Source of the DNA: Siphonodentalium dalli
Taxonomy: Eukaryota > Mollusca > Scaphopoda > Gadilida > Siphonodentaliidae
Direction of reading: 5' to 3'
DNA: 64,000 nucleotides
NCBI GenBank assembly: GCA_032622095.1
Contig: CP136062.1
Location: forward strand, 158,156,875 to 158,220,874
Made by a program: the position numbers and the translations under genes. This document shows positions 25,595-64,000 of this stretch, piece after piece. Numbering within the stretch: position 1 is the first letter of the stretch; each line of letters starts with the position of its first letter. Under the pieces are notes generated by a model. The model was not told where the DNA came from. It worked only from the letters and a program-made list of their open reading frames with translations, and did not search any database.

Positions 25595-28500
25595 AAAGTT
25601 GAAAGGCCTAGTTATGCAAAGATTAAAATCCAAGATGGCCGCGACAGCCATCGTTTTTTTTGCCAAATGACACACAAAAGACTCCTTCCTATTTACATGT
25701 CATTGTTAACATCCTTCACAAATTTTATGATGATCCGACAAAAGATACGACCTGTAGCCCGTATCAAAGGATTTAGTCGTGTAAAGAGTAAAATACAAGA
25801 TGGCTGCTGGCGACCAGGTTTCTTGGTCGAATTCAAAATGAACCTTTTCCCATCTACATGTAATTGTTAACATCCATTACAAATCTCATGATGATTGGAC
25901 CAAAGATTCGACTTGTAGCCCTTGACAAAGAATTTAGTCATGCAAAGAGTATAATCCAAGATGGCTGCTGGCGGCCATGTTTTGGCCGAACAACCCCAAA
26001 ATTACTCATTTCCCATCTACATGTCCATTTTAACATCCATGACAAATTTAATGAAGGTGGCAATGACACTGTAGCTCAACTTAGGTAGGGGAATAATTTA
26101 ATGGTCGACAGTAAATGGAAGAATATGAAAAGTGCTATTTGAAATGTCTAAGTAAGACTAGATGTACATGTCAATATCAACATTTATAACAGGTTTCATA
26201 ATGATCGGATCAGGGATGTGGTGATTATGGTGTGCCAAAGGATTTATTGATGCAAAGAGTAAATTCTAAAATGGCCAACGGCAGCCATGTTTTTTTCCGA
26301 ATTACCCCAAAATGACTTGTTCCCATCTACAGCCTTTACAAATCTCATAATGATCTGATCAAAGATATGACCTGTAGCCTGTGCCAATGGATTTAGTCAT
26401 GCAAAGAGTAAAATACAAGATGGCTGCTGGCGGCCATGTTTTTCGGCTGAACGACCCCAAAATGACTCGTTTCCCATCTACATGTCATTGTTAACATACA
26501 TGACAAATTTCTTGAAGTTCCGACCAAAGCTACGACCTGTAGCCCACACCAAAGGATTTATTCATGCAAAGAGTAAAATCCAATATGGCTGCTGGCGGAC
26601 ATGTTTTTTAGCGAAACGACCCCAAAATGACTCGTTCCCATCTACATGTTAATATTAACATCCATGATAAATATCATGATGATCAGACAAACAGTACGAC
26701 ATGTAGCCCGTGCCAATGGATTGGATTTTGAAATCCAAGATGGCTGCCAGCGGCCAAGTTTTTTGGCCGTATGACCCCAAAATGACTCGTTCCCATATAC
26801 ATGTCAATATCAGTATTCATGACAAATTTCATAAAGGTCAGACCAAAGGTACGACCTGTAACCCGCGCCAAAGGATTTAGTCATTGAAAGAGTAAAATCC
26901 AAGATGGCTGCTGGCGGCCATGTTTTTTGGCCGAACAACCCCAAAATCACTCGTTCCCATCTACATGTCATTGTTAACATCCATGACAAATTTCATGAAG
27001 TTCTGACCAAAGATACAACCTGTAGTCCGCGCCAAAGAATTTAGTCATGCAAAGAGTAATATCCAAGATGGCTGCTGGCGGCCATGTTTTTTGGCTGAAC
27101 GACCTCAAAATCACTCGTTCCCATCTACATGTCATTGTTAACATCCATGACAAATTTCATGATGATCAGACGAACAGCACGACCTGTAGCCCGCGCCAAT
27201 GGATTGAATTTTGAAATCCAAAATGGCCACCAGCGGCCATGTTTTTTGGCCGAATGACCCCAAAATGACTCGTTCCCATTTACATGTCAATGTCAACATT
27301 CATGACAAAATTCATAAAGATCAGACCATAGGTACGACCTGTAGCCCGCGCCAAAGGATTTAGTCATGCAAACAGTAAAATCCATGATGGCTGCTGGCGG
27401 CCATGTTTTTTGGCCGAATGACCCCAAAATCGCTCGTTCCCATCTACATGTCAATGTCAACATTCATGACAAAATTCATAAAGATCAGACCATAGGTACG
27501 ACCTGTAGCCTGCGCCAAAGGATTTAGTCATGCAATGAGTAAAATACAAGATGGCTGCCAGCGGCCATGTTTTTTGGCAGAATGACCCCAAAATGACTCG
27601 TTCCCATTTACATGTCAATATCAACATTCATGACAAAATTCATAAAGATCAGACCATAGGTACGACCTGTAGCCCGCGCCAAAGGATTTAGTCATGCAAA
27701 GAGTAAAATCCATGATGGCTGCTGGCGGCCATGTTTTTTGGCCGAACAACCCCAAAATCACTCGTTCCCATCTACATGTCATTGTTAACATCCATGACAA
27801 ATTTCTTGAAGTTCCGACCAAAGCTACGACCTGTAGCCCACACCAAAGGATTTATTCATGCAAAGAGTAAAATCCAATATGGCTGCTGGCGGACATGTTT
27901 TTTAGCCAAACGACCCCAAAATGACTCGTTCCCATCTACATGTTAATATTAACATCCATGATAAATATCATGATGATCAGACAAACAGTACGACATGTAG
28001 CCCGTGCCAATGGATTGGATTTTGAAATCCAAGATGGCTGCCAGCGGCCAAGTTTTTTGGCCGTATGACCCCAAAATGACTCGTTCCCATAGACATGTCA
28101 ATATCAATATTCATGACAAATTTCATAAAGGTCAGACCAAAGGTACGACCTGTAACCCGCGCCAAAGGATTTAGTCATTGAAAGAGTAAAATCCAAGATG
28201 GCTGCTGGCGGCCATGTTTTTTGGCCGAACAACCCCAAAATCACTCGTTCCCATCTACATGTCATTGTTAACATCCATGACAAATTTCATGAAGTTCTGA
28301 CCAAAGATACAACCTGTAGCCCGCGCCAAAGAATTTAGTCATGCAAAGAGTAATATCCAAGATGGCTGCTGGCGGCCATGTGTTTTGGCTGAACGACCTC
28401 AAAATCACTCGTTCCCATCTACATGTCATTGTTAACATCCATGACAAATTTCATGATGATCAGACGAACAGCACGACCTGTAGCCCGCGCCAATGGATTG

Positions 28501-39173: not shown

Positions 39174-39960
39174 AGTCCGTTATTCCGAAGGTCCCCCATT
39201 ATGTCATATATGCGAGTCTCCCATATGGAGCCTCACATATATAAGAGCATACATTGGCCTAACAATAATAACCTTAACCCTAAGTGAGTGCATTCTCTTA
39301 TATGTGCGTTGGTCCCGATGGGAGACTCGCATATATAAGATAGTGCAATGGCACAGGATATGTAATGCTGCACCAGCGTAGCTCCCGTCTTGAAAGGGAT
39401 AAATGACGAACCGTCGAAGTAACTTCGGCTCCGGCGACATGGAAGCTGCAAGGCAGAGTTGAGGTGCATCGCAACACAAGCTCTTGTCAGCTAACCAATC
39501 ACTGCTATGCTTTCCTCTGTCAGCGTGAACTAGTCACTCCTAGTAAAGTTGCTTAATTGTGTGATCATTGTTTGTTCTTATTTTACTATCATTGATTGCC
39601 AAAAAGTATGCAATTGCCATACTTATGCATGCTATCATATAGAAACAAAATATCGGACCTTCGGAATAACGAACCTTCGGAATAACGAACCCTCGTCATA
39701 ACTTGCAGTTGTCGTTTCGAGGGTCCGCTATTTCGAAAGTTTTTATATTTTGTCAAATATTTGTAAGTGGAACTATATTCCACCGAAAGAACCCAACAAT
39801 ATTTTATCATGTCTATCATGCCTAATATATAGGCGATTTATAAATCTTTCCAGTCACACGCATTGTGTCCGTAAAGTGTACTTTCGGAATAGCGGACCTT
39901 CGGAATAGCAAACTTCGAAATAGGAGACTTCGAAATAACGGACCTTCGGAATAATGACCC
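39174..39960. repeat. TTCGGAATAACGG repeat cluster in both orientations
   Basis: GTCCGTTATTCCGAAGGTCC (39176-39195) faces GGACCTTCGGAATAACGAAC (from 39656), which is followed by a tandem repeat of the same motif. A further inverted pair runs from about 39700 (TTTCGAGGGTCCGCTATTTCG) to 39880-39955 (TTCGGAATAGCGGACCTTCGG and more copies). This pattern suggests nested foldback elements with subrepeat-built ends. Confidence 0.7.
39205..39352. repeat. Two degenerate members of the TATATATGCGAG hairpin family
   Basis: About 39205-39258 and 39285-39352 read as worn versions of the 20932-21000 hairpin: ATATATGCGAG / CTC(g/a)CATATATAAGA arms and ..CATTGGC(c/a) ends are recognisable. TTAACCCTAAGTGAGTGCA stands at 39274, close to the piggyBac-like MITE end. 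Confidence 0.65.
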
Positions 39961-41983: not shown

Positions 41984-44900
41984 CTGCACAAATTATAATA
42001 GATTAATTGTCTTTCGTACTATTCTTAGTTTAGTCATTTTAGTATAAGGATATGGCAATAGATAATCGGGAGTTCTATGTACAGTTGTAATACCGGTAAT
42101 TACTGTGACCACTTTATTTGGCGGTTTTATGGTACATGAAAGTCGATGTCACTATCGATGAGTTTATATAAGGTAAGGTAACACAGTAAAATTAAAATAG
42201 CATTTCCATTGTTCAAAACATGAGGGGGAATAGTATATATAAATCGGTATAGTCAAAGGAGAGGCGAGTTAATTCCGTAATCCCAGCAAAACTATTAATT
42301 TGTGTCTAAAATGTGTCATAGCAATTTGTATAAAATTGGTGTGTGTCATAGCTTAGCCATTACACACAGTAATTAGAATAACGAGCAGTATGTGTCGTAC
42401 AAGCCGTGTGCTGACGCGTCGAAGTTCGCTGTGCCAAGACAGCCGATTGTCGGTCCGCTTGACTCTTTTCTTGCAACCCCTCAGACGGCACCATTACCAA
42501 TGATGACCGAAAGCTGACACATCTCCTGAAATCTTGGTGGGTCGTCCCAAACGACTGGCATAGTTCAAGTCGTTAAGTGTCCAACGAGGAAGGACAGTGA
42601 GCTCATGTAAAAGAGAATAATAAATGGTATTTGAACACGTTGGTGTGGGCCTAGCTCTACATTGGAGACTGATATACTAGTTTTAATAAGGTAGATATAT
42701 CAACACTGTTATACTGTAACATTAAAGGTATATCTTTTAAAATACGTTTTACAAGACCATTTAGATCTTGTTTGGAAGCTAACACTCTGAAGGGAAACAC
42801 CATATTTCATAAGCGACATTGGGAGTTGTATTGTCCAGCACCATTTTTACGAATTGAACAGAACTTGATCAATTCTCGATTTAGAGTTTTATCGATATAA
42901 TTCCAATATGGATAACACACTGATGTTCGTCATTCGTGCAAACCAAAGAAACAATTTGAGGAACAATTGAAGCTATACATATATCAGGACATGTATCGAT
43001 AATATGACACCATTGTTTTATTAGTTAACACCAAACTAAGCTGTTTGATAATTATAAGTAAGAATTTATTAAGTCAGAACCATGTCAATTACCGTGAACA
43101 TAACTGGTTGCCTGGACAACCATTCAACAATAAGGCACATGTGGAAATTAGTGCCATCCCAGCAGTTGACAGTCCAGCCAACATAGGTAAGTTGAAATGC
43201 CGTAGCTGATTAAGTGAATTACGCGAATAAGTTCACGGAGTACATGCTGGCCCATGCAAGGACGGTGTCAGGAAAGTTGTTTGTCCAGGAACATGTCGGC
43301 AAGATCGAGGAAGGTGTTAGAGGGTGCTGATGTAGATGGTAATGGTCTGCACGTGATCAGTCAACTATCTGTTGGCTTCAGAGTACCCAGGTACCATCAT
43401 GTTGTTTGTTCGAGTGGCACCTGAAATATTAACACGTTTACTGTAATTTTTTTGAAAATGTGATCTAAACAGAAACTGCTCACCACTGCATGTAGCTGTG
43501 AAAATATGTTGCGATTATAGTAACATGTACGAAATTGTTAGAATCCTAGATAATTCACATTTAAGTGCATTCAAATCTAACAGATTTCCATCCACCAAAT
43601 TTCTTACAAATGGTTTTACCTTCATGGATGGTAGACCCTTTTCACTGTTTCGTGTCATGATTTAGAAAATTTCTTCTGTCTTTGTTGCTGTGCATATATT
43701 GCCGCCTTTGACATTCTTGTTGATGGCTTTCTGCAGCTTGCTATCTGACGTTTCGCTTATCGGGAGACAAGCCACTTTACAATTGTGTTAGCGAGTGGAC
43801 CGTGTCAAATTGACCATGTTAATAAATTTAGTGTAAACTATATGTATGGTGCGTTCACGTGGATTAGCGAGAAGAAATTCATGTCAAATCGGAACCATTT
43901 AAGGAAAAAATACCAGCAAATTCCAGCGTGTTCACTGAATGTTTCCATAAGAGCAATTCTTTGTTGAAAATTATGGGCGTTCGTGTGGAAATGAGTGCGA
44001 ATAACAAAACTAGTTTAAAATAGTTATGTGTAGTTTTTGTTTAAATAACAGTCGATTAGAAACTGCTGAAGTTGATTTAAAATATTCAAAGAAATATATC
44101 ATAATCAGGTTTGCCAACAGTTTTGGTCCCGGTTTTCTTCAATAATCCAACTTAATTATAGACATAGAGAAGAACTAAATCCCCGACGAAAATCAAGTCA
44201 TCGTGCATTACTTATTCTTACTCGAAACTATTAGAGTACTACTGGTAGCTTTCACTAACTAGTAGGTAGTCCATGTATTAAATATACACGTAAATTATAC
44301 ATAATAAACGTTTTCAGATAGTATATAGTGATATAGGCGAACCAATGGTAAATGTTAATTTAATTTTAACAACAGGTCCTGTGGTTGATGTAATGAAAAA
44401 ATGCTGTAAGTGTGAGTATGGATATACCTATACATACACTAAAAAGGGTGCATTTTTATTTAACGAAATATTTAATGTTTTCCCGCTAAGATGTTGAAAC
44501 TATATAAGAAATATTTGTCAAATAGAACTTTATAAGAAGTAAATTAGTTATGTATCAATAAATATAATTAGAATGGCATGCTAACCACACTAAAGAAACG
44601 TCAAAACAATAAGATAATCCAGGGCATTTATCAAAAAAGCAAATAGTTAATTGCAAAACTATTGTTCTTCATAGTATTACTTACAAATTTTATGTTAAAA
44701 CCTTTTTTTAATATGGAGTTATTTTTAACTGAGCGCTGTTCTCACGAGATTGTGCACAATAGTTTTGTTTGCGTATATACATGACAAGTGAGTTTCCATT
44801 GATCTGACTTAGCCAAATTTGCCTGGGAAACAGAACATCGTTTGATGGTATTTTGGGGGTGTTTTTATATAACATGGCGATCACATTCTAATAAGTAAAC

Positions 44901-46547
44901 TTCCAATAAAGTAACAAGCTATTTCATAATGTAGGAGCAAACTCAGTTTACACACTAAACGCCCGTTTTTCTATTTATGAACCAAACCCTTATATATGAT
45001 CCCAAAAACGTGTCACTGACGACATGCACAGGTTTAGCCGTATGTTTAACTGCATACAGTATTTCAAATGTGAAGTTCGTGCAAGCGGTTAGATGTTTTC
45101 ATTCCTTAACGAACAACTCGCCTTATAAAACAACGATGTCGACACTTTTCGCGTTAGCCATTGTGAGAGACACTGGATGATACGAACTGGACACACAAAC
45201 AGGATACATTCTTGTTGATTTGGTCACCAAATATATAACCCACAAACCACTCCCACTGTCGATGGTTTTATGTATTTTCACACATTCGTTGATTGAAACA
45301 ATCTGGCGAATATTGCGAATATATTGGTACTAATGTGGTTCTATTTTCACAAGAGTTATCCAACTGGTGAAATTAGGCCGCTTTAGTTAACGAACAATAC
45401 TTTCTAATGGGATTCGCCGGTAATCCAAAAGGGATTACTCTCTGGTGCAATATGTCGTAACTAGCAATGTCCTTTGGGAGACAATAACACTGTTGATTGG
45501 ATATATGTTCATCTTCACGCCTTCACACTACAAACAGAAGGGTAGTAAATTGCGTTTGTGTAATCTATTCACAAAGAACAAAATAACACAATTTAAATAT
45601 GCCTATATACACTCTTAATACTTCTTTATACTTGTCAAATCCTCCCGGGTCTCACCCCAAAACTCCTCTTTCAAATTACTAAAGGATACGAGAAATTCGA
45701 ACTTCAATTCTGAAATAGGTAATGACTAATGAAACCAAAAAATAATGACAGCGTGTCTTCTGCTTTTCCCCCTTATATAATGACGAGGCTTGTCGGTCTT
45801 CGTTGTTTTTTCATGTGTCCACCTTGAAATTTCCAACTGTCCCCCCTGAACCAGACTAAGCTCCCAAGTTCGTGTAATACCAATTACACCCCGGCTTGAA
45901 ATTACAGAACTGGTCCCCACAGCCATGGTTTTATTTTGTTTAATGACTATTAGTCTTTGACTGACGATCGGGGAGGGGAAATGACCCACCAGGCCGACCA
46001 TTGTTCGGCCCAGTGTGAGAACAATTTGAAATCTGAACCTGATAACTGCCAAATCCTTGCTTCTAGAGGACTAACTCCGGCACAATCAGGCGTCGATATT
46101 TTTTAATTTATAAGGTTGGAACTGCTGGTAATTTTAGTCGAAAATTGTTATCAAAACCAGGACATTATATTACTGTTACTGGAATATCAAACTACTAGAA
46201 AACTTTTTAACCTATTGTTGGTGTGAAATTTACAACCACTGAGCACTGTGTCAGGTATGAAATGTCCAAAAGTTTAAAATTTTGACCAAAGTTGTGGTGA
46301 GAAACCCATCCCCACCCGGTCCCTGTCCATATATACATCTCATTCTCACCATCTTCTAATATTGGCTCGAGAAATGTGTTGCTATATGAAAACGATATTT
46401 CCACAACAAGTGGGCATTATACTTGAGAAGACATATATTCCACGAGGAGATACTTTAAAAAATCTATTTGCTTGTCCAATTCTCTTTCTCAATCTCTGTA
46501 TCCACATGTGTTGTATAGGTCTTCCGTCAACGACGGTCTTATGGAAT
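41984..46547. other. 4.5 kb without a supported gene
   Basis: AT-rich DNA with scattered short open frames on both strands, none with a recognisable motif. GACAGTCCAGCCAACATAG before GTAAGTTG at about 43189 is a good-looking donor but the upstream frame is only 34 codons. Local slight G+C rises at 42400-42600 and 43100-43400 carry no recognised repeat. Confidence 0.45.
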
Positions 46548-47233
46548 GACACGCTGGCGAATAAATCCAACAATATCCCAACCATTTCAATTTTAATTTT
46601 ATTCGTCGGATTCCATAATGTAAAGATCAGTCTACGTTTGTGTTATGTCTCCGTCATCAATAATGAAGTCGCACGGAGACTCACAGTAGGTCTTCGCTAC
46701 ATATAAAAAGACCTCTTTGATGGACCCTGTTTGAAATTTATTTCGGACATAGTTTGCTACATCCGTAAAGCACTGTTCAGGTATTCTTAGCTGCTTTAGA
46801 AATGCCATCTTCAATAAGTAAATTTTCGACATATCTCGCATCTGATGGACATTGCGCTGCAGAAGCAAACAAATTATCTTCGTAACTTTGTGAAGACAAA
46901 CACCCGCGATATAACGAATGTTTGACCCCACATTCTGACAGAGAGTCTATGTCTGTCGATATGCTGGGAACTGCGGTGACACATGTCCTGGAGCTCATAT
47001 AACACGAACACAATCTAACTTGAAAGTTATGTCAATGGGAGTAACTACAAAAATTGCCTATCTCTGTGTACAGTACCCCTTTAACCCTTTACCCAACAAA
47101 TCGGCCAAAAACGCCCAAATAAAGCTTCAACAGCCTAAAATATCTTCGGTCTGTCTCAATAACACCATACAAATATGGATATCATTGGAACCGGTTCATT
47201 GACCACATTGTGATGATTACCGTTATGCCCTGT

Positions 47234-47302
47234 GCCAATGCATTCTCTTATATATGCGAGTCGACCATAGGTCACCTCGCATATATAAGAGAATGCATTG
47301 GC
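47234..47302. repeat. Perfect 27-bp-arm hairpin, copy B
   Basis: Arms 47234-47260 and 47276-47302 are exact complements and identical to copy A. The loop (TCGACCATAGGTCAC) is, but for one base, the reverse complement of the loop in A, so B is inserted in the opposite orientation. Confidence 0.9.
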
Positions 47303-47434
47303 CTAAAAAATCACTTTTTACCATTTTTTGTTACATTCTTTAACAATTTTATAATTTTTTCTTACATTTTTTTACAATTTTTATAATATTTTTCTACATT
47401 CTTTGACAATTTTATCATTTGTAATATGTGTTAA

Positions 47435-47503
47435 GCCAATGCATTGTCTTATATATACGAGGCGACCTATGGTCGACTCGCATATATAAGAGAATGCATT
47501 GGC
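47435..47503. repeat. Hairpin, copy C
   Basis: Same family and same orientation as copy A (loop GCGACCTATGGTCGA identical). The left arm has two substitutions (GCATTGTC, ATACGAG), so the pairing is no longer perfect. Confidence 0.88.
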
Positions 47504-48494
47504 ACAGGGCCGTTCTGTTGGGTGCCATAAGTGCTTGGAACATCATTAACAATGTTCCCATGAATGTTGACGGTGCTCACATTTTAATCACATTCTTTGC
47601 CATATCAATTATCTGAGAAAATACTGACCTGACTATTTTTGTAGAAATTGTTTTAATATCTGGGGTTATATGTTCCACACCGAACAACTGGCGTGTAATT
47701 TCAATGTGGTCATTCCCGATAAGAAATATTGTTCATTGTTCTGTATAATAAATTCCACTCAGTCTTTCCCTTTGTGTCCCGCTGGCCAGTATGCAATAAA
47801 CATCATTAATATACTCTGCCAATATATCGGATTTTAAAAATTCTTGTTCTTGTGTTTCATATAAATATTTCCGTTCATTCCTTTTGACCAAATCGATCGT
47901 GGCAATGCAACTGTTAGAAATCTCTTATATGCCGTCTCATGTATGATTCCCATATCTGTGAGACAACATGTCCTATCTTCCATGAACCCCTGTACATCGT
48001 GGTGTAATACAAGTAGACATCTTGGGAATGATTCATCGATGCCATATGTTTTAATAATTCATAATGTGTATATCATCTGGGCACCGTAATCGGCCAACTG
48101 CAACACCAATTTGTCCGGCAGCGAAGAGAAGTGAACAATCCACCATGACTGAATCCATGGTCATACCATGGGCCCCGTGTACAGTCATCGCAAAAGCGTG
48201 TCGTGTGTGGTATCGTACCATTTTCCGACTAGTCACTTGTGTGATTTATGTTAAACATCGAACCGTTCTCTTTGTAACTTCACAGCCACTACACCAAAAG
48301 ATACAACTGGAGACTCTCCATGGAACCATTGAACGACTCCCTGCGTTCCGTTTGTCATACATTTTGACAAGGATAACAGGTGCACAGGATTTCAAACAGA
48401 ACTCAACTGAACAGCCTTGTGACGCTGACCTTTCGACGAAGAGCTTGTGACTTTTCTCTGTTCAAAATGGATTTCTAATTGTGTAGGCCTTCTC

Positions 48495-49645
48495 TGACAC
48501 ACTGGCGAACATATCAAACAGTATTCCTACCATATTGATTTAATTTTCTTCGTGGGATTCAATATTGGAAATATCAGTCCACGCTTGTATTACGTCTTCG
48601 TCGTCATTAATGACACTCCGTGCCATCTCACTAATGCCAATAATATTCCGTTAAAATGATTGCACCGAGAACAAATTCGCATGGAGACCCTCAATACGGC
48701 TTTGCTACATATAAAATACCTCTTAATGGACCTTGTTTGAAATTTATTTCATAGCTTGCACATCCTTAATGCACTGTTCTGGTATTCGTAGCTGTTTCAG
48801 CAAAGCCATTGTCAATAAGTAAATTTTCGACGTATCTCGCATCTGATGGCCACTACGCTCCAGTAGCACACACATTCTCTTTATAACTTTGTGAAGACAA
48901 ATACCAGCGATATAAAGAGTTTTGACCCCAAAATCTAACTGAGGGGGTCGATGTGCTGGGAACTGCGGTGTCGCAAGACACATCTGTGTTAGAGCTGGCG
49001 GTTGATTCTGTGGCAGCAGAAGTACTTGGAACAGCATCAATGTCCTGAGCAATGTTGACGGTGCACACATTTTAGTTCACATTCCTTACCACATCGTCAA
49101 TTATCTGAAAAAAATACGGATCTGAATAATTTTCTAGAACTTTTGTTCACAACTGGTGTTAAATGTTCCACCATGAACAAAGAGGCGTGCCATTTCAATA
49201 TGGTCGTCGTTCCCAATAAGAAATGTGTTCATAATTCTGTATAGTAAATGTATGATTCTTAAATATGTCAGACAACATGTCAGATCTTCCAAGAACCCCT
49301 GTGCGTAAATGGTGTAATATTAGTATGCATCTGCGGATGTTTCAACGATGATATATTTATTGAATAACTCAAAATATGTGTATCATCTGGGAACCGTGCG
49401 CGGCCAACTGCAACATCGATTTGTCCGGCAGCGAAGAAAAGTGAACAATCCACGATGACCGAATCCAGTGTCATACCCTGGGCCCTGTGTACAGTCATCG
49501 CAGAAGCGAGTTGTTAGGGGTAGTGTACTTTCTCGACTACTCCCTTGTGTGATTTATGTTGATCATCGAACCGTTCTCATTGAAACTTCACAAACAATTC
49601 AGCACAAGATACCACTGGAGACTATCCATGGAACTATTGAACAGC
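48495..49645 (-). pseudogene. PIF1-like helicase C-terminal region, copy 2 (tandem to copy 1)
   Basis: At 49498-49340 the minus strand reads MTVHRAQGMTLDSVIVDC and FAAGQIDVAVGRARFPDD, a better-preserved motif VI than copy 1, with HGMTLD-type residues intact. After a Ser/Thr-rich linker (STSAATESTASSNTDVSC and AVPSTSTPSV), 48930-48744 gives YIAGICLHKVIKRM, ERSGHQMRDTSK and LKQLRIPEQCIKDV. The homology to copy 1 runs from about 48495 to 49645. Frameshifts and stops make it a pseudogene. It abuts copy 1, so the pair is a tandem duplication. Confidence 0.75.
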
Positions 49646-49829
49646 CGACTTGCCGACTAAAGTTAGTCGATTGCAAGCGGTGTTACGACCACGTCCATTG
49701 GGTTCCAATCCTCCCCGTCCTCTGCCTCTTCCTCTGCGACGATCAACACCACAACCATATCGGCCTTGTCCTTCACTGTTAAAACAGAACCGTGAACATT
49801 CATGGTTATTTGCCGGCAATTTGGGGACC

Positions 49830-50072
49830 GGTTGGACCGTGAATTTTTCACGGTCTTACCGTTAAAACATTTACAGCCAATCTGTGAATTGTTCACGGTC
49901 TGTCCGTTAAACAATTTACAGCAAATCCGTGAATTTTTCAGGGTCTGTCCGTTCTTGACTTTACAATTGAACCGTAGAATTTTTTAAACGGTTATGCCGT
50001 TAAAACATTTACAGCAAAACCGTGAATTTTCACGGTCTGCCCATTTATCAGTTACAGTCACACCGTAAAATT
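49830..50072. repeat. Tandem ~54-bp repeat with palindromic cores
   Basis: About five units alternate GACCGTGAATTTTTCACGGTC-like palindromes (here given loosely) with CCGTTAAAACATTTACAGC..AA. Each core can form a small hairpin. Units differ by substitutions (TTCACGG, TTCAGGG, TTAAACGG). Confidence 0.75.
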
Positions 50073-50407
50073 CTTAGTATTAGTCTGTTCATGTATTGAC
50101 TTTTGTGGTCACTAATATAGGCCTGATGATTGAAAATTGAAAATCTATTCCTTATAATTTCAAAGATATTTAGCAATATTGTAAATTCAACTCCGGACAG
50201 ACACATGTATTATGTGAAATGCAACTGGGGTGGTTTCATACAACCTTAGTAAAGCTGAATGTGTCTTGGTGTGTATTTCATGAGTTACCTAACCTGAAAA
50301 TGCATTAACTTATGAGATAACTTTCTATGCACATTTAGCTTAACTGCAACTATGCTAAATCCTGCAGTCCAATTTCACTGCTAATATACATGTATGTCTA
50401 GTTTGAG
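50073..50407. other. No gene supported
   Basis: AT-rich spacer; nothing recognised. Confidence 0.45.
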
Positions 50408-50755
50408 TTAGTATAGAGTGTCAATGGAATCTATTAAATGAAATGCACAGACGGTTATCGCATATAGGTTAGCGCGTTTCCAGGATAGAAAACTCTTTGG
50501 AAAAAACATACAAAGACAACATCTTTCGCTTAATAGTAAAATGTAACTATTATGTAGACAAATAACATTTAATGAAACTGATGAATCAGTGACACAACAG
50601 TCAACATATTCCTCTATCCTTGTACTTGATTTCTCCATAACAGTATACATATCCAGAAATGTCCATGTCCGGTTGGTCAGCCAATGTATTGGCAACATTA
50701 TTTCTTCACGAAAATCCAGTTCATTTGAAAGAACATCCGAAATATCATTGAACAA
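50408..50755 (-). pseudogene. Possible coding fragment of unknown family
   Basis: The first ~65 codons on the minus strand look protein-like: SNELDFREEIMLPIHWL, then TWTFLDMYTVMEKSSTRIEE and CCVTDSSVSLNVICLH. The remainder looks random. There is a TAG just upstream and no clear start. It lies between helicase copies 2 and 3 on the same strand, so it may be part of the same element. No domain recognised. Confidence 0.3.
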
Positions 50756-50969
50756 CTAAATTAAACACCACCGTCCTGCAACTGTCAACTTTATATATCA
50801 GACAGTGCATCAGTTGCTATCGCATGCTTATAGGAAAGCTGGTTGTCGTCGCGGAGTCTTATATTCGAATCTTGGAACTGTCTCGTGTATCAGACTATCT
50901 CACTTAAATTTCCACAAATCTTGTAACATTATATTCAGTGCATTTCTGTGCCAGTTCCTATCGTAGGCC

Positions 50970-51228
50970 CTTCTTGAAATTTATTTCCGACATCGTTTCC
51001 ACGTATGTTCCGGTATTCTGAGCTGCTTTAGCAGTGCCATCTTCATTAAATTGATGTTAGACGTATCTCGCATCTGATGGCCACTGCGCTCCAGAAGCAA
51101 ATAAATTATCTTGATAACTGTGTGGAGACAAATACCCGCGATGTAACGAATTTTGCACCCCACAATCTGATTTAGAGGGTATATCTCTGTCGATGAGCTG
51201 CATGGAACTTCGGTGTCGAGAGACACAG
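50970..51228 (-). pseudogene. PIF1-like helicase C-terminal block, copy 3, abutting the satellite
   Basis: The minus strand from 51228 reads PVSLDTEVPCSSSTEIY, a short linker, then RYIAGICLHTVIKI, LLLERSGHQMRDTSN and LLKQLRIPEH, ending in a frameshifted stop at 50981. It matches copies 1 and 2 over about 240 bp. In place of the rest of the linker and the PIF1 motif, the upstream sequence is the 24-bp array, and its HQQPVISI frame (open from about 52261) runs into this block without a stop. The helicase motif, if it survives, would lie beyond 64000. Confidence 0.7.
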
Positions 51229-54200
51229 GTTGCTGTTGTATCGAGATAACAGGCTGCTGGTGTAATGAGATAACATGCTGCTGGTGTATCGATATAACAG
51301 GCTGCTGGTGTATCGAGATAACAGGCTGCTGGTGTATTGAGATAACAGGCTGCTGGTGTATATCGATAACAGGCTGCTGATGTATAGAGATAACATGCTG
51401 CTGGTGTATCGAGATAACAGGCTGCTGGTGCATAGAGATAACATGCTGCTGGTGTATAGAGATAACAGGCTGCTGGTGTATCGAGATAACAGGCTGCTGG
51501 TGTATTGAGATAACAGGCTGATGGTGTATCGATATAACAGGCTGCTGGTGTATCGAGATAACAGGCTGCTGGTGTATTGAGATAACAGGCTGCTGGTGTA
51601 TATAGATAACAGGCTGCTGATGTATAGAGATAACATGCTGCTGGTGTATCGAGATAACAGGCTGCTGGTGCATAGAGATAACATGCTGCTGGTGTATAGA
51701 TATAACAGGCTGCTGGTGTATAGAGATAACAGGCTGCTGGTGTATTGAGATAACATGCTGCTGGTGTATCGATATAACAGGCTGCTGGTGTATCGAGATA
51801 ACAGGCTGCTTGTGTGTAGAGATAACCGGGTGCTGGTGTATAGAGATAACATGCTGCTGGTGTATATAGATTACCGGCTGCTGGTGCATAGAGATAACCG
51901 GCTGCTGGTGTATTGAGATAACAGGCTGCTGGTGTATCGAGATAACAGGCTGCCGGTGTATTGAGATAACAGGCTGTTGGTGCATAGAGGTAAGAGGTTG
52001 CTGGTGTATAGAGATAACAGGCTGCTGGTGAATTGAGATAACAGGCTGCAGGTGTATCGAGATAACAGGCTGCTGGTGTATCGATATAACAGGCTGCTGG
52101 TGTATTGAGATAACAGGCTGCTGGTGTATAGAGACAACAGGCTGCTGGTGTATCGAGATAACTGGCTGCTGGTGTATTGAGATAACAGGCTGATGGTGTA
52201 TCGAGATAACAGGCTGCTGATGTCTAGAGATAACAGGCTGCTGGTGTATATAGATAACAGGCTACTGGTGTATAGAGATAACAGGCTGCTGGTGTATCGA
52301 GATAACAGGCTGCTTGTGTATAGAGATAACAGGCTGCTGGTGTATCGAGATAACAGGCTGCTGGTGTATAGAGATAACAGGCTGCTGGTGTATATAGATA
52401 ACAGGCTACTGGTGTATAGAGATAACAGGCTGCTGGTGTATCGAGATAACAGGCTGCTTGTGTATCGACATAACATGCTGCTGGTGTATAGATATAACAT
52501 GCTGCTGGTGTATAGAGATAAAAGGCTGCTGGTGTATCGAAATAACATGCTGCTGGTGTATAGAGATAACAGGCTGCTGGTGTATATAGATAACAGGCTG
52601 CTGGTGTATTGAGATAACAGGCTGCTGGTGTATTGAGATAACAGGCTGCTGGTGTATCGAGATAACAGGCTGCTGGTGTATCGAGATAACATGCTGATGG
52701 TGTATTGATAACATGTGGGTTATAGAGATAACAGGCTACTGGTGTAATGAGATAACAGGCTGCTGGTGTATTGAGATAACAGGCTGATGGTGTATAGAGA
52801 TAACAGGCTGATGGTGTATCGAGATAACAGTCTGCTGGTGTATCGATATAACAGGCTGCTGGTGTATCGAGATAACAGGCTGCTGGTCTATCGAGATGAC
52901 AGGCTGCTGGTGTATAGAGATAACAGGCAGCTGGTGTATCGATGTAACAGGCTGCTGGTATATCGAGATAACAGGCTGCTGGTGTATTGATAACATGTGG
53001 GTTATAGCGATAACAGGCTACTGGTGTAATGAGATAACAGGCTGCTGGTGTATTGAGATAACAGGCTGATGGTGTATAGAGATAACAGGCTGATGGTGTA
53101 TCGAGATAACAGTCTGCTGGTGTATCGAGATAACAGGCTGCTGGTGTATCGAGATAACAGGCTGCTGGTATATCGAGATAACAGGCTGCTGGTGTATAGA
53201 GATAACAGGCTGCTGGTGTATCGATGTAACAGGCTGCTGGTATATCGAGATAACAGGCTGCTGGTGTATTGATAATATGTGGGTTATAGAGATAACAGGC
53301 TGCTGGTGTATAGTGATAACAGGCTGCTGTTGTATCGAGATAACAGGCTGCTGGTGTATTGAGATAACAGGCTGCTGGTGTATAGATATAACATGCTGCT
53401 GGTTTATCGAGATAACAGGCTGCTGGTGTATTGAGATAACTGACTGCTGGTGTATCGAGATAACAGGCTGCTGGTGAATCGAGATAACAGGCTGCTGGTG
53501 TATTGATAACATGTGGTTTATTGAGATAGCAGGCTACTGGTGTAATGAGATAACATGCTGCTGGTGTATTGAGATAACAGGCTGCTGGTGTATAGAGATA
53601 ACATGCTGCTGATGTATTGAGATAACAGGCTGCTGGTGTATTGAGATAGATAACAGGCTGCTGCTGTGTTGAGGTAACAGGCTTCTGGTATATCGAGATA
53701 ACAGGCTGCTGGTGTATTGATAATATGTGGGTTATAGAGATAGCAGGCTGCTGGTGTATTGAGATAACAGACTGCTGGTGCATAGAGATAACAGGCTGCT
53801 GGTGTATAGATATAACAGGCTGCTGGTGTATATATTTAACAGGCTGCTGATGTAATGAGATAACAGTCTGCTGGTGTATCGAGATAACATGCTGCTGGTG
53901 TATAGAGATAACAGGCTGCTGGTGTATCGAGATAACAGGCTGCTGGTGTATCGAGATAACATGATGCTGGTGTGTTGAGATAACAGGCTGCTGGTGTATA
54001 GAGATAACAGGCTACTGGTGTATCGAGATAACAGGCTGCTGGTGTATCGAGATAACAGGCTGCTGGTGTATCGAGATAACAGGCTGCTGGTGTATCGAGA
54101 TAACAGGCTGCTGGTGTATAGAGATAACAGGCTGCTGGTGTATCGATGTAACAGGCTGCTGGTATATCGAGATAACAGGCTGCTGGTGTATTGATAATAT

Positions 54201-57200
54201 GTGGGTTATAGAGATAACAGGCTGATGGTGTATAGTGATAACAGGCTGCTGGTGTATTGAGATAACAGGCTGCTGGTGTATTGAGATAACAGGCTGCTGG
54301 TGTATAGAGATAACATGCTGCTGGTTTATCGAGATAACAGGCTGCTGGTGTATAGAGATAACTGACTGCTGGTGTATCGAGATAACAGGCTGCTGGTGTA
54401 TTGTGATAACATGTGGTTTATTGAGATAGCAGGCTACTGGTGTAATGAGATAACATGCTGCTGGTGTATTGAGATAACATGCTGCTGGTGTATTGATATA
54501 ACAGGCTGCTGATGTATTGAGATAACAGGCTGCTGGTGTATTGAGATAGATAACAGGCTGCTGCTGTGTTCAGGTAACAGGCTTCTGGTATATCGAGATA
54601 ACAGGCTGCTGGTGTATTGATGATATGTGGGTTATAGAGATAGCAGGCTGCTGGTGTATTGAGATAACAGACTGCTGATGCATAGAGATAACAGGCTGCT
54701 GGTGTATAGATATAACAGGCTGCTGGTGTATATATTTAACAGGCTGCTGGTGTAATGAGATAACAGTCTGCTGGTGTATCGAGATAACATGCTGCTGGTG
54801 TATAGAGATAACAGACTGCTGGTGTATCGAGATAACAGGCTGCTGGTGTATCGAGATAACATGATGCTGGTGTATTGAGATAACAGGCTGCTGGTGTATC
54901 GAGATAACAGGCTACTGGTGTATCGAGATAACAGGCTGCTGGTGTATCGAGATAACAGGCTGCTGGTGTATCGAGATAACAGGCTGCTGGTGTATCGAGA
55001 TAACAGGCTGCTGGTGTATCGAGATAACAGGCTGCTGGTGTATCGAGATAACAGGTTGCTGGTATATCGAGATAACAGGCTGCTGGTGTATAGAGATAAC
55101 AGGCTGCTGGTGTATAGAGATATCAGGCTGCTGGTGTATTGAGATAACAGGCTGCTGGTGTATATAGATAACAGGCTGCTGGTGTATTGATAATATGTGG
55201 ATTATAGAGATAACAGGCTGCTGGTGTATCGAGATAACAGGCTGCTGGTGTATCGATGTAACAGGCTACTGGTGTAATGAGATAACAGGCTGCTGGTGTA
55301 TTGAGATAACAGGCTGATGGTGTATAGAGATAACAGGCTGATGGTGTATCGATATAACAGTCTGCTGGTGTATCGAGATAACAGGCTGCTGGTGTATCGA
55401 GATAATAGGCTGCTGGTATATCGTGATAACAGGCTGCTGGTGTATCGAGATAACAGGCTGCTGTTGTATCGAGATAACAGGCTGCTGGTGTATTGAGATA
55501 ACAGGCTGCTGGTGTATCGAGATAACAGGCTGCTGGTGTATTGAGATAACAGGCTGCTGGTGTATTGAGATAACAGGCTGCTGGTGTATTGATAATATGT
55601 GGGTTATAGAGATAACAGGCTGCTGTTGTATCGAGATAACACGCTGCTGGTGTATTGAGATAACAGGCTGCTGGTGTATTGAGATAACAGGCTGCTGGTG
55701 TATAGAGATAACATGCTGCTGGTTTATCGAGATAACAGGCTGCTGGTGTATTCAGATAACAGACTGCTGGTGTATATAGATAACAGGCTGCTGGTGTATC
55801 GAGATAACAGGATGCTTGTGTATCGAGATAACAGGCTGTTGGTGTATCGAGATAACAGGCTGCTGGTGTATTGATAACATGTGGGTTATAGAGATAACAG
55901 TCTACTGGTGTAATGAGATAACAGGCTGCTGGTGTATTGAGATAACATGCTGCTGGTGTATAGATATAACAGACTGCTGGTGTATAGAGATAACATGCTG
56001 CTGGTGTATAGAGATAACAGGCTACTGGTGTATTGAGATAACATGCTGCTGGTGTATCGAGATAACATGCTGCTGGTGTATAGATATAACAGGCTGCTGG
56101 TGTATCGAGATAACAGGCTGCTGGTGTATCGAGATAACATGATGCTGGTGTATTGAGATAACAGGCTGCTGGTGTATAGAGATAACAGGCTACTGGTGTA
56201 TCGAGATAACAGGCTGCTGGTGTATCGAGATAACAGGCTGCTGGTGTATCGAGATAACAGGCTGCTGGTGTATCGAGATAACAGGCTGCTGGTGTATCGA
56301 GATAACAGGCTGCTGGTGTATCGAGATAACAGGCTGCTGGTATATCGATATAACAGGCTGCTGGTGTATAGAGATAACAGGCTGCTGGTGTATAGAGATA
56401 TCAGGCTGCTGGTGTATTGAGATAACAGGCTGCTGGTGTATATAGATAACAGGCTGCTGGTGTATTGATAATATGTGGGTTATAGAGATAACAGGCTGCT
56501 GGTGTATCGAGATAACAGGCTGCTGGTGTATCGATGTAACAGGCTACTGGTGTAATGAGATAACAGGCTGCTGGCGTATTGAGATAACAGGCTGATGGTG
56601 TATAGAGATAACAGGCTGATGGTGTATCGATATAACAGTCTGCTGGTGTATCGAGATAACAGGCTGCTGGTATATCGTGATAACAGGCTGCTGGTGTATC
56701 GAGATAACAGGCTGCTGGTGTATCGAGATAACAGGCTGCTGGTGTATTCAGATAACAGGCTGCTGGTGTATCGAGATAACAGGCTGCTGGTGTATTGAGA
56801 TAACAGGCTGCTGGTGTATTGAGATAACAGGCTGCTGGTGTATTGGTAATATGTGGGTTAAAGAGATAACAGGCTGCTGTTGTATCGAGATAACAGGCTG
56901 CTGGTGTATTGAGATAACAGGCTGCTGGTGTATTGAGATAACAGGCTGCTGGTGTATAGAGATAACATGCTGCTGGTTTATCGAGATAACAGGCTGATGG
57001 TGTATTGAGATAACAGACTGCTGGTGTATATAGATAACAGGCTGCTGGTGTATCGAGATAACAGGATGCTGGTGTATCGAGATAACAGGCTGCTGGTGTA
57101 TCGAGATAACAGGCTGCTGGTGTATTGATAACATGTGGGTTATAGAGATAACAGGCTACTGGTGTAATGAGATAACAGGCTGCTGGTGTATTGAGATACC

Positions 57201-60200
57201 AGGCTGCTGGTGTATAGAGATAACATGCTGCTGGTGCATAGATATAACAGACTGCTGGTGTATAGAGATAACATGCTGCTGGTGTATAGAGATAACAGGC
57301 TACTGGTGTATTGAGATAACATGCTGCTGGTGAATTGAGATAACATGCTGCTGGTGTATCGAGATAACAGGCTGCTGGTGTATAGAGATAACAGGCTGCT
57401 GGTGTATTGATAATATGTGGGTTATAGAGATAACAGGCTGCTGGTGTATTGAGATAACAGGCTGCTGGTGTATAGAGATAACATACTGCTTGTGTATTGA
57501 GATAACAGGCTGCTGGTGTGTTGAGATAACAGGCTGCGGATGTATAGAGATAACAGGCTGCTGGTGTATCGAGATAACAGGCTGCTGGTGTATCGAGATA
57601 ACAGGCTGCTGGTGTATCGAGATAACAGGCTGCTGGTGTATCGAGATAACAGGCTGCTGGTTTACAGAGACAACAGGCTGCTGGTGTATAGAGATAACAG
57701 GCTACTGGTGTATATAGATAACAGGCTGCTGGTGTATTGATAATACGTGGGTTATAGAGATAACCGGCTGCTGGTGAATAGAGATAGCCGGCTGCTGGTG
57801 TATAGATATAACAGGCTGTTGGTGTATCGAGATAACAGGCTGCTGGTGTATCGACATAACATGCTGCTGCTGTATTGAGATAACAGGCTTCTGGTGTATC
57901 GATATAACAGGCTGTTGGTGTATTGATAATATGTGGGTTATAGAGATAGCAGGCTGCTGGTGTATTGAGATAACAGACTGCTGGTGCATAGAGATAACAG
58001 GCTGCTGGTGTATATATATAACAGGCTGCTGGTGTATAGAGATAACAGGCTGCTGGTGTATTGAGATAACAGGCTGCTGGTGTATTGAGATAACAGGCTT
58101 CTGGTGTATAGAGATAACATGCTGCTGCTGTATCGAGATAACAGGCTGCTGGTGTATCGAGATAACAGGCTGCTGGTGTATTGAGATAACAGGCTGATGG
58201 TGTATAGATATAACAGTCTGCTGGTGTATTGAGATAACAGGCTGCTGGTGTATTGAGATAACAGGCTGCTGGTGTATATAGATAACAGGCTGCTGATGTA
58301 TAGAGATAACATGCTGCTGGTGTATCGAGATAACAGGCTGCTGGTGCATAGAGATAACATGCTGCTGGTGTATAGATATAACAGGCTGCTGGTGTATCGA
58401 GATAACAGGCTGCTGGTGTATTGAGATAACATGCTGCTGGTGTATCGATATAACAGGCTGCTGGTGTATCGAGATAACAGGCTGCTTGTGTGTAGAGATA
58501 ACCGGGTGCTGGTGTATAGAGATAACATGCTGCTGGTGTATATAGATTACCGGCTGCTGGTGCATAGAGATAACCGGCTGCTGGAGTATTGATAACATGT
58601 GGGTTATAGAGATAACAGGCTACTGGTGTAATGAGATAACATGCTGCTGGTGTATAGAGATAACAGGCTGCTGATGTATAGAGATAACAGGCTGCTGGTG
58701 TATTGATAATATGTGGATTATAGAGATAACAGGCTGCTGGTGTATAGAGATACCATGCTGCTGGTGTATTGAGATAACAGGCTGCTGGTGTATTGAGATA
58801 ACAGGCTGCTGGTGTATATAGATAACATGCTGCTGGTGTATTGAGATAACATGCTGCTGGTGTATCGATATAACATGCTGCTGGTGTATCGAGATAACAG
58901 GCTGCTGGTGTATAGAGATAACAGGCTGCTGGTGTATTGAGATAACAGTTTGCTGGTGTATAGAGATAACAGGCTGCTGGTGTATTGAGATAACATGCTG
59001 CTGGTGTATCGATATAACATGATGCTGGTGTATCGAGATAACAGGCTGCTGGTGCATAGATATAACAGGCTGCTGGTGTTTAGAGATAACATGCTGCTGG
59101 TGTATATAGATTACCGGCTGCTGGTGTATCGAGATAACAGGCTGATGGTTTATAGAGATAACAGGCTGCTGGTTTATTGAGATAACAGGCTGCTGGTGTA
59201 TCGATATAACATGCTGCTGGTGTATCGAGATAACATGCTGATGGTGTATTGATAACATGTGGGTTATAGCGATAACAGGCTACTGGTGTAATGAGATAAC
59301 AGGCTGCTGGTGTATTGAGATAACAGGCTGATGGTGTATAGAGATAACAGGCTGATGGTGTATCGAGATAACAGTGTGCTGGTGAATTGAGATAACATGC
59401 TGCTGGTGTATCGAGATAACTGGCTGCTGGTGTATAGAGATAACAGGCTGCTGGTGTATCGAGATAACAGGCTGCTGGTGTATTGATAACATGTGGGTTA
59501 TAGAGATAACAGGCTACTGGTGTAATGAGATAACAGGCTGCTGGTGTATTGAGATAACAAGCTGCTGGTGTATAGAGATAACATGCTGCTGGTGTATAGA
59601 TATAACAGACTGCTGGTGTATAGAGATAACATGCTGCTGGTGAATTGAGATAACATGCTGCTGGTGTATCGAGATAACAGGCTGCTGGTGTATAGAGATA
59701 ACAGGCTGCTGGTGGATTGATAATATGTGGGTTATAGAGATAACAGACTGCTGGTGTATTGAGATAACAGGCTGCTGGTGTATAGAGATAACATACTGCT
59801 TGTGTATTGAGATAACAGTCTGCTGGTGTGTTGAGATAACAGGCTGCGGATGTATAGAGATAACAGGCTGCTGGTGTATCGAGATAACAGGCTGCTGGTG
59901 TATCGAGATAACAGGTTGCTGGTGTATCGAGATAACAGGCTGCTGGTGTATCGAGATAACAGGCTGCTGGTTTACAGAGACAACAGGCTGCTGGTGTATA
60001 GAGATAACAGGCTACTGGTGTATATAGATAACAGGCTGCTGGTGTATTGATCATACGTGGGTTATAGAGATAACCGGCTGCTGGTGAATAGAGATAGCCG
60101 GCTGCTGGTGTATAGATATAACAGGCTGTTGGTGTATCGAGATAACAGGCTGCTGGTATATCGAGATAACATGCTGCTGCTGTATTGAGATAACAGGCTT

Positions 60201-63200
60201 CTGGTGTATCGAGATAACAGGCTGTTGGTGTATTGATAATATGTGGGTTATAGAGATAGCAGGCTGCTGGTGTATTGAGATAACAGACTGCTGGTGCATA
60301 CAGATAACAGGCTGCTGGTGTATATATATAACAGGCTGCTGGTGTATAGAGATAACAGGCTGTTGGGTATTGAGATAACAGGCTGCTTGTGTATTGAGAT
60401 AACAGGCTTCTGGTGTATAGAGTTAACATGCTGCTGCTGTATCGAGATAACAGGCTGCTGGTGTATCGAGATAACAGGCTGCTGGTGTATTGAGATAACA
60501 GGCTGATGGTGTATAGATATAACAGGCTGCTGGTGTATTGAGATAACAGGCTGCTGGTGTATAGAGATAACAGGCTGCTGATGTATAGAGATAACAGGCT
60601 GCTGGTGTATTGATAATATGTGGATTATAGAGATAACAGGCTGCTGGTGTATAGAGATAACAGTCTGCTGGTGTATAGAGATAACCGGCTGCTGGTGTAT
60701 TGATAACATGTGGGTTATAGAGATAACAGGCTACTGGTGTAATGAGATAACATGCTGCTGGTGTATAGAGATAACAGGCTGCTGATGTATAGAGATAACA
60801 GGCTGCTGGTGTACTGATAATATGTGGATTATAGAGAAAACAGGCTGCTGGTGTATAGAGATACCATGCTGCTGGTGTATTGAGATAACAGGCTGCTGGT
60901 GTATTGAGATAACAGGCTGCTGGTGTATAGAGATAACATGCTGCTGGTGTATTGAGATAACATGCTGCTGGTGTATCGATATAACATGCTGCTGGTGTAT
61001 CGAGATAACAGGCTGCGGGTGTATAGAGATAACAGGCTGCTGGTGTATTGAGATAACAGGCTGCTGGTGTATAGAGATAACAGGCTGCTGGTGTATTGAG
61101 ATAGTGTATCGATATAACATGATGCTGGTGTATCGAGATAACAGGCTGCTGGTGCATAGATATAACAGGCTGCTGGTGTTTAGAGATAACATGCTGCTGG
61201 TGTATATAGATTACCGGCTGCTGGTGTATCGAGATAACAGGCTGATGGTGTATAGAGATAACCGATTGCTGGTGTATTGAGATAACAGGCTGCTGGTGTA
61301 TTGAGATAACAGGCTGCTGGTGTATTGAGATAACAGGCTGCTGGTGTATCGAAATAACATGCTGCTGGTGTATCGAGATAACATGCTGTTGGTGTATTGA
61401 TAACATGTGGGTTATAGAGATAACAGGATACTCGTGTAATGAGATAACAGGCTGCTGGTGTATTGAGATAACAGGCTGATGGTGTATAGAGATAACAGGC
61501 TGATGGTGTATCGAGATAACAGTCTGCTGGTGAATTGAAATAACATGCTGCTGGTGTATCGAGATAACTGGCTGCTGGTGTATAGAGATAACAGGATGCT
61601 GGTGTATTGATAATATGTGGGTTATAGAGATAACAGGCTGCTGGTGTATTGATATAACAGGCTGCTGGTGTATCGAGATAACATACTGCTTGTGTATTGA
61701 GATAACAGGCTGCTGGTGTGTTGAGATAACAGGCTGCGGATGTATAGAGATAACAGGCTGCTGGTGTATGGAGATAGCAAGCTGCTGGTGTATCGAGATA
61801 ACAGGCTTCTGGTGTATAGAGATAACATGCTGCTGCTGTATCGAGATAACAGGCTGCTGGTGTATCGAGATAACAGGCTGCTGGTGTATTGAGATAACAG
61901 GCTGATGGTGTATAGATATAACAGGCTGCTGGTGTATTGAGATAACATGCTGCTGGTGTATAGAGATAACAGGCTGCTGATGTATAGAGATAACAGGCTG
62001 CTGGTGTATTGATAATATGTGGATTATAGAGATAACAGGCTGCTGGTGTATAGAGATAACAGTCTGCTGGTGTATTGAGATAACAGGCTGCTGGTGTATT
62101 GATAACATGTGGGTTATAGAGATAACAGGCTACTGGTGTAATGAGATAACATGCTGCTGGTGTATAGAGATAACAGGCTGCTGATGTATAGAGATAACAG
62201 GCTGCTGGTGTATTGATAATATGTGGATTATAGAGATAACAGGCTGCTGGTGTATAGAAATACCATGCTGATGGTGTATTGAGATAACAGGCTGCTGGTG
62301 TATTGAGATAACAGGCTGCTGGTGTATAGAGATAACATGCTGCTGGTGTATTGAGATAACATGCTGCTGGTGTATCGATATAACATGCTGCTGGTGTATC
62401 GAGATAACAGGCTGCTGGTGTATAGAGATAACAGGCTGCTGGTGTATTGAGATAACAGGCTGCTGGTGTATAGAGATAACAGGCTGCTGGTGTATTGAGA
62501 TAACATGCTGCTGGTGTATCGATATAACATGATGCTGGTGTATCGAGATAACAGGCTGCTGGTGCATAGATATAACAGGCTGCTGGTGTTTAGAGATAAC
62601 ATGCTGCTGGTGTATATAGATTACCGGCTGCTGGTGTTTCGAGATAACAGGCTGATGGTGTATAGAGATAACCGGTTGCTAGTGTATTGAGATAACAGGC
62701 TGCTGGTGAATTGAGATAACAGGCTGCTGGTGTATTGAGATAACAGGCTGCTGGTGTATCGAGATAACATGCTGCTGGTGTATCGAGATAACATGCTGAT
62801 GGTGTATTGATAACATGTGGGTTATAGAGATAACAGGCTACTGGTGTAATGAGATAACAGGCTGATGGTGTATAGAGATAACAGGCTGATGGTGTATCGA
62901 GATAACAGTCTGCTGGTGAATTGAGATAACATGCTGCTGGTGTATCGAGATAACTGGCTGCTGGTGTATAGAGATAACATGCTGCTGGTGTATTGATAAT
63001 ATGTGGGTTATAGAGATAACAGGCTGCTGGTGTATTGATATAACAGGCTGCTGGTGTATAGAGATAACATACTGCTTGTGTATTGAGATAACAGGCTGTT
63101 GGTGTATCGAGATAACAGGCTGCTGGTTTATCGAGATAACAGGCTGCTGGTTTACAGAGACAACAGGCTGCTGGTGTATAGAGATAACAGGCTACTGGTG

Positions 63201-64000
63201 TATATAGATAACAGGCTGCTGGTGTATTGATAATACGTGGGTTATAGAGATAACAGGCTGCTGGTGAATAGAGATAACCGGCTGCTGGTGTATAGATATA
63301 ACAGGCTGTTGGTGTATCGAGATAACAGGCTGCTGGTGTATCGATATAACATGCTGCTGCTGTATTGAGATAACAGGCTTCTGGTGTATGGAGATAGCAA
63401 GCTGCTGGTGTATCGAGATAACAGGCTGCTGGTGTATCGAGATAACAGGCTGCTGGTTTATCGAGATAACAGGCTGCTGGTTTACAGAGACAACAGGCTG
63501 CTGGTGTATAGAGATAACAGGCTACTGGTGTATATAGATAACAGGCTGCTGGTGTATTGATAATACGTGGGTTATAGAGATAACAGGCTGCTGGTGAATA
63601 GAGATAACCGGCTGCTGGTGTATAGATATAACAGGCTGTTGGTGTATCGAGATAAAAGGCTGCTGGTGTATCGATATAACATGCTGCTGCTGTATTGAGA
63701 TAACAGGCTTCTGGTGTATCGAGATAACAGGCTGTTGGTGTATTGATAAAATGTGGGTTATAGAGATAGCAGGCTGCTGGTGTATTGAGATAACAGACTG
63801 CTGGTGCATAGAGATAACAGGCTGCTGGTGTATATATATATAACAGGCTGCTGGTGTATAGAGATAACAGGCTGCTGGTGTATTGAGATAACAGGCTGCT
63901 GGTGTATTGAGATAACAGGCTTCTGGTGTATAGAGATAACATGCTGCTGCTGTATCGAGATAACAGGCTGCTGGTGTATCGAGATAACAGGCTGCTGGTG
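51229..64000. repeat. Giant 24-bp minisatellite, runs past the window end
   Basis: A 24-bp unit (minus strand starts TGTTATCTCGATACACC; plus strand contains GGCTGCTGGTGTAT) repeats without foreign insertion for at least 12.77 kb, roughly 500 units. Variants cluster at a few positions (TATCGAG/TATTGAG/TATAGAG, ACAGGC/ACATGC, GCTGCTGG/GCTACTGG/GCTGATGG). About every 200-600 bp an 18-bp longer unit with TTGATAA(c/t)ATGTGGGTTATAG occurs. Large blocks recur at offsets of 900, 1278, 1386, 2310 and 3510 bp. The minus frames read HQQPVISI, NTPAACYL and SRYTSSLL, two plus frames read VYRDNRLL and EITGCWCI; all are consequences of the unit. No gene is supported inside it. Confidence 0.97.

Follow-up and report, generated by a model that had tools for sequence, protein, structure and literature searches.

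A 64,000-nucleotide stretch of the Siphonodentalium dalli genome (the window; C2:158156875-158220874 of an assembly of 2.23 Gb in 9 contigs) was analyzed because decayed copies of a PIF1-type helicase gene lie in it next to a long tandem array of a 24-bp unit. On the minus strand, three C-terminal blocks of the gene end in stop codons at positions 46632, 48744, and 50981. A blastn comparison gives identities of 80.8% between copies 1 and 2, 79.5% between copies 1 and 3, and 77.0% between copies 2 and 3, which confirms the three homologous blocks reported in a preliminary description of the sequence; the stops, too, are at the positions given there. All three copies have decayed by stops, frameshifts, and truncation, and no intact helicase gene is present at the array.

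Copy 1 (46547..48430, minus strand) extends from a region resembling PIF1 2B, named by eye, to the C-terminal block. Copy 2 (48495..49642, minus strand) retains PIF1 motifs V and VI (49283-49513), the middle part of the family, a Ser/Thr-rich linker, and the C-terminal block. Its motif V/VI region matches solved PIF1 helicases with a best E value of 1.9e-6 and the Helitron protein Helraiser with an E value of only 0.26. In both copies, the C-terminal block had been described as preceded by a short linker and then motif VI. The Ser/Thr-rich linker and the PIF1 motifs are indeed found in copy 2, but further family sequence, judged by eye to be of the order of 100 residues, separates motif VI from the C-terminal block, and in copy 1 a foldback (inverted-repeat) insert identified by self-blast (47227..47510, strand not assigned) also lies between the two. 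Copy 3 (50981..51224, minus strand) is a dead fragment of the C-terminal block with a residual linker (SLDTEVPCSSSTEIYPLNQ...), joined in frame to the array. Its 28 bases just outside the inner edge of the array (51197..51224, minus strand) are homologous to copy 2 and weakly continue the repeat unit. Relatives of the copy 1 foldback element, which has a palindromic end, occur at 20863-21010 and 39197-39357 (self-blast), and the element was also seen, by eye only, next to the outer array edge at window-equivalent position ~104100.

A genome search with the copy 2 block recovered eight places. Three are the window copies themselves, another three are their counterparts in a near-identical duplicate of the locus (C2:157.93 Mb), and the remaining two lie on C4. 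This C4 pair (C4:218.858-218.867 Mb) consists of better-preserved family copies that are separated by about 7 kb and point in opposite directions; their open reading frames (ORFs) include a PHD finger and an RG-rich tail. A search with the C4 copy gave 20 matches, of which five are distant and fall in open frames of 598 to 735 residues on C1, C3, and C6. Three of these distant ORFs were scanned against Pfam; two score above the cut-off for Pif1_2B and the third falls just under it. A PHD finger is found in two of the three and also in the ORF just downstream of the C4 block, and one family member has a weak upstream PIF1 match (E=2.3e-4), under the curated cut-off. Because of these PIF1, Pif1_2B, and PHD matches, the family is identified as a PIF1-type helicase that in several members carries a C-terminal PHD finger (PF05970/PF21530/PF00628). 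The open relatives thus resemble such proteins, whereas the window copies are decayed and copy 3 keeps only the part that follows the linker. An ORF of 394 amino acids beside one of the C4 copies looks like a reverse transcriptase by eye.

Beyond this genome, a protein search with the copy 3 block scored four candidates and gave no match at E values up to 10. The open C3 relative retrieved 27 proteins, three of which were counted as family members (P0001-P0003, 81-94% query coverage); the remaining 24 are weak general helicase matches. Among viral sequences, a single pattern match to the C-terminal block turned up and no relative was confirmed, and a 30-base pattern of the repeat unit gave no match. 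A 14-base fragment of the unit matched at least 120 viral stretches in a search that had no control; these matches were taken as chance and not used.

According to Tandem Repeats Finder (TRF) and unit decomposition, the array occupies 51225..64000 of the window (no strand assigned), comprises 541.6 copies of the unit there, and runs past the window end. It continues to window-equivalent position 94177 and resumes, after an interruption, from 98719 to 103980. The array had been put at over 12.7 kb; its true size is approximately 48.2 kb, made up of segments of 42.95 kb and 5.26 kb. The 4.54-kb interruption (window-equivalent 94177-98719) has 281-bp inverted ends that are 96% identical, as well as internal repeats, and looks like an inserted element of the foldback type. 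A pattern of the unit matches 501 times in the window, compared to 0.40 matches expected from shuffling, with the earliest match at 51228 among the 200 listed. A 42-bp composite variant accounts for 273 of the 1825 decomposed pieces of the first array segment (138 20-mers and 135 22-mers); it recurs along the array and is absent from the first 1.5 kb beside the gene.

The junction between gene and array can be read directly. Homology between copies 2 and 3 stops at 51227 (blastn), no more than 3 bases from the array start given by TRF, so that the array abuts copy 3 at the linker, as had been proposed, and shares the frame of that linker. In the frame of the C-terminal block, the minus strand has no stop between 52261 and 50984, and the 42-bp variants preserve this frame, as they would if copy 3 encoded a protein with an expanded HQQPVISI repeat. 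However, the long open frame is trivial because none of the three minus frames of the consensus unit contains a stop, and a TAG-bearing unit variant (11 copies) and frame changes bring the frame to an end. Synonymous changes make up 27% of the weighted changes versus 22% of the possible ones, as counted on 24-bp pieces only (462 of 546 kept) with the four-fold site at unit position 18 omitted.

The distribution of the unit across the genome is sharply restricted. A 17-mer of the unit, searched with up to one mismatch, matches 2658 times on the forward strand and five times on the reverse strand, against two and zero matches for a control sequence. All but one of the forward matches (2657) lie inside two arrays on C2, namely, that of the window locus and that of its duplicate, and the five reverse matches lie outside them. 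With a 21-mer and up to three mismatches, 2988 of 3066 forward matches fall in the two arrays; the other 78 are at background level (71 on the reverse strand; 63 and 82 for the control). At these settings, no long arrays of the unit were found at further loci of the genome. The repeat is therefore a locus-private giant minisatellite and not a dispersed satellite, most simply explained by birth in place. The preliminary description had called it a satellite, which by its distribution is overstated, and had named a wide spread of the unit outside such genes as an outcome that would speak against local birth; no such spread was observed with these patterns. The 24-bp period falls within the range of approximately 10 to 100 bp used to define minisatellite units.

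The duplicate locus (C2:157926001-157981000) lies 273 kb upstream and corresponds to the interval from window position 42048 to window-equivalent position 110415. The shared inner flank (42048..52000, plus strand, versus C2:157926001-157935887) is 99.6% identical over 7861 bp and 98.1% identical over the last 2117 bp, array included, where 42048 marks the start of the compared stretch and not a proven end of the duplication. The outer flanks are 99.7% identical over 3994 bp, and the 4.54-kb interrupting element is present in both arrays. The first array segment is 42.95 kb long in the window copy and 29.86 kb in the duplicate, a difference of approximately 13 kb. The duplicate may be a recent duplication (a paralogue) or a misplaced haplotype.

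Internal block copies are plainly visible within the window array, where they are numerous and reach 931 bp at 96% identity. A unit-by-unit alignment of the first segments of the two loci, in which unaligned blocks are omitted, yielded 1116 aligned pairs and 35 gaps. Among the 14 largest gaps, from which positions were taken, a single one (10 units) falls within the first 19 kb from the gene. Further in, a block of 474 units exists only in the window copy; it contains 63 distinct units, compared to 147 among 400 units nearer the gene, and shows periods of 58 and 121 units. The block copies, the low unit diversity, and these periods therefore make it well supported that the array grew by repeated block duplication, most recently in its inner part.

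Taken together, we consider it likely, with a probability of roughly 70%, that the 24-bp repeat originated locally, as a giant minisatellite that arose at the broken linker edge of a dead PIF1-type helicase copy. The birthplace proposed in the preliminary description is thus probably right as to the locus, the only place, along with its duplicate, at which the pattern searches found the unit; the part of the proposal that derives the unit from the linker itself is considerably less certain and is discussed below. In an anchored alignment, the inner edge of the array continues the unit (p=0.013) and the outer edge does not (p=0.58). In the sequence of steps that we infer, from birth at this locus through the mechanism of duplication to the order of events, a short stretch at the broken gene edge would first have been duplicated in tandem, by replication slippage or break repair. 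The array would then have been enlarged by repeated duplication of multi-unit blocks, as is seen from the internal copies of up to 931 bp at 96% identity and from the 58- and 121-unit periods in its inner part. A foldback-like element would have inserted near the far end. The region now exists in two copies, whose arrays differ by 13 kb in length.

Several points weigh against birth in place. An array brought in from another place and since lost there would look identical, and restriction seen at one locus in one genome is no proof of birth there. The unit was searched by pattern, so that relatives differing at more than 3 of 20 bases would escape. The array may also sit at a mere breakpoint. 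PIF1 motif VI had been expected to resume beyond the array, but the 5′ part of the helicase was not found in the 20 kb past the far array edge, where the best protein match has an E value of 0.71 and one DNA match of 24 bp has an E value of 0.042; likewise, no family matches at an E value of 0.01 were present in the 60 kb after the window. The gene was therefore cut short at the linker, whether before the array grew, while it grew, or afterwards.

Whether the linker itself provided the seed is a separate question. Under this explanation, one 24-bp stretch of the native Ser/Thr-rich linker was duplicated and expanded, so that the unit descends from the gene. It was approached with five kinds of tests (free alignment, position-weight profile, anchored edge, fixed register, and permuted units) and with seven stretches from relatives, three of which were included in a linker alignment, with the C9 relative viewed alone and the remaining three (L178-L180) kept outside the alignment. 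The anchored test of the copy 3 inner edge given above weakly favors seeding, as does the ungapped extension of copy 3 against C4, which stays positive through the last array units (BLOSUM62 score of +12; p=0.0026 and 0.005 under two nulls). In addition, the consensus unit in the C4 register is the best of eight rotations (+7), and array and linker share a frame, for which the chance expectation is one in three. However, the fixed-register test on C4 is post hoc, because the likeness had already been noticed before the register was chosen, and its DNA version gives p=0.05.

The other tests are less favorable. At the same position, the anchored test gives p=0.06 for the own bases of copy 2 and p=0.20 for copy 1. 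Free alignment yields p values of 0.02 to 0.17 for C4, 0.02 to 0.11 for copy 1, 0.10 to 0.17 for copy 2, and 0.07 to 0.12 for the copy 3 edge, and earlier runs gave similar or weaker values. The single unit-like stretch claimed for copy 2 does not clearly exceed chance (p values of 0.06 to 0.17). With permuted units, the three native linkers together reach 0.057 (C4, 0.88; copy 2, 0.37; copy 1, 0.14), and, among 158 windows along the C4 protein ranked for unit likeness, those of the linker that hold TVTIVQ come no higher than 50th. Helicase relatives with linkers devoid of unit-like sequence had been named in the preliminary description as an outcome against its proposal, and this outcome was largely observed. 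In six distant relatives (three from the genome and three from metagenomes), the linkers are variable, approximately 17 to 40 residues long, and by eye free of an 8-residue repeat, and the closest array-free sequences (C4 and copies 1 and 2) are borderline at best. In the C9 relative, homology is lost at the linker and its 2-kb stretch contains no unit match. As the five kinds of tests disagree, we regard seeding by the linker as possible but less likely than not. It is doubtful that a 48-kb repeat was created de novo from the linker codons of one dead gene, in a setting where the birthplace, an array-free sister on C4, and two independently drifting descendants could all still be read.

Alternatively, the array could have arisen elsewhere, as an older satellite, within a mobile element, or by introgression, and have come to lie beside copy 3 through insertion, translocation, or illegitimate joining, with the source since lost. 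Since the search of the 20 kb past the far edge did not recover the gene, the junction, where the end of the gene homology and the array start are no more than 3 bases apart, is readable as a plain breakpoint. Moreover, the family also breaks at the linker in the C9 relative (C9:153647140-153647415, 73-76% identical), whose homology runs out at the linker that in copy 3 adjoins the array; breaks may recur at this linker. Against such an origin, the 2.23-Gb genome contains no further copy at the sensitivity used, whereas long arrays of older families usually leave remnants, and the inner edge is weakly unit-like. We therefore regard an external source as unlikely.

An origin in a Helitron, in which the helicase would belong to a rolling-circle transposon whose internal minisatellite expanded, is disfavored and appears improbable. 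The genome is rich in Rep domains, with at least 151 matches (150 of 457 candidates scored), and satellites carried by Helitron and Helentron elements have been published (PMC7492417, PMC12628747). However, among the Rep matches listed, all are more than 0.45 Mb from the places of the family (the nearest is approximately 0.46 Mb away, at C3:142.71 versus 143.17 Mb), and the 10 Mb to either side of the window hold none of them. In Pfam scans, pieces of the relatives show PIF1 (below the cut-off), Pif1_2B, and the PHD finger, and no Rep, and the motif V/VI region of copy 2 fits PIF1 far better than Helraiser. Finally, a coding repeat in copy 3 was rejected, as the array does not look coding, given the trivial openness of its frame, the TAG-bearing units, the frame changes, the lack of a clear synonymous bias, and the failure to find any helicase part within 20 kb on the far side.

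The window contains several other repeats, all detected by TRF. A nested tandem array at 26338-31067 has periods of 164, 319, and 483 bp, with approximately 15 copies of the 319-bp period; a 361-bp repeat is present in approximately three copies at 12065-13166, and a 252-bp unit in two copies, 99% matching, at 582-1086. Just upstream of copy 2, a 45-bp repeat (49836-50039, approximately 4.5 copies) holds a short inverted repeat (ACCGTGAATTTTTCACGGT). In addition, a fragment of a reverse-transcriptase ORF was identified at 18495-19415 (RVT_1, E=7.4e-18). No RNA families were found in the window at the gathering threshold.

Among known systems, the array is most readily compared to minisatellite or variable number tandem repeat loci, with which it shares a 24-bp unit, presence at one locus and its duplicate, unit variants, multi-unit duplications, and a length that differs between copies. 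It differs from them in that it measures approximately 48 kb and abuts a dead gene copy; typical minisatellites are far shorter. A second point of comparison is provided by satellites that originate from short tandem repeats within transposable elements (Vondrak et al., PMC7004042; reviewed in PMC12628747). There too, long arrays lie beside or inside a repeated gene or element copy and local amplification is proposed, with short arrays in dispersed retrotransposons occasionally expanding. In contrast, the other family copies examined here showed no such repeat, and the searches for the unit turned up no other locus. The satellite-like repeats of oyster Helitron and Helentron elements (PMC7492417, PMC8268682) bear a superficial likeness as tandem repeats next to helicase sequence; however, the present array occupies a single locus, without dispersal and with no Rep nearby among the matches listed.

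That tandem repeats can arise locally from the sequence of an element has already been described (PMC12628747, PMC7004042), and repeats amplified from nearly every part of a transposable element are reported in the review (PMC12628747). The locus therefore leaves the known range of tandem-repeat origins unchanged. By title, no publication on a repeat that originated in a gene for a PIF1-type helicase was found. Most satellites come into view after spreading, when their seed is gone, whereas this very long array is still confined to its locus and its junction with the gene is readable. Together with the array-free C4 relative and a near-identical duplicate that differs by 13 kb, this makes the locus a usable case for studying how a repeat starts and how fast it turns over.

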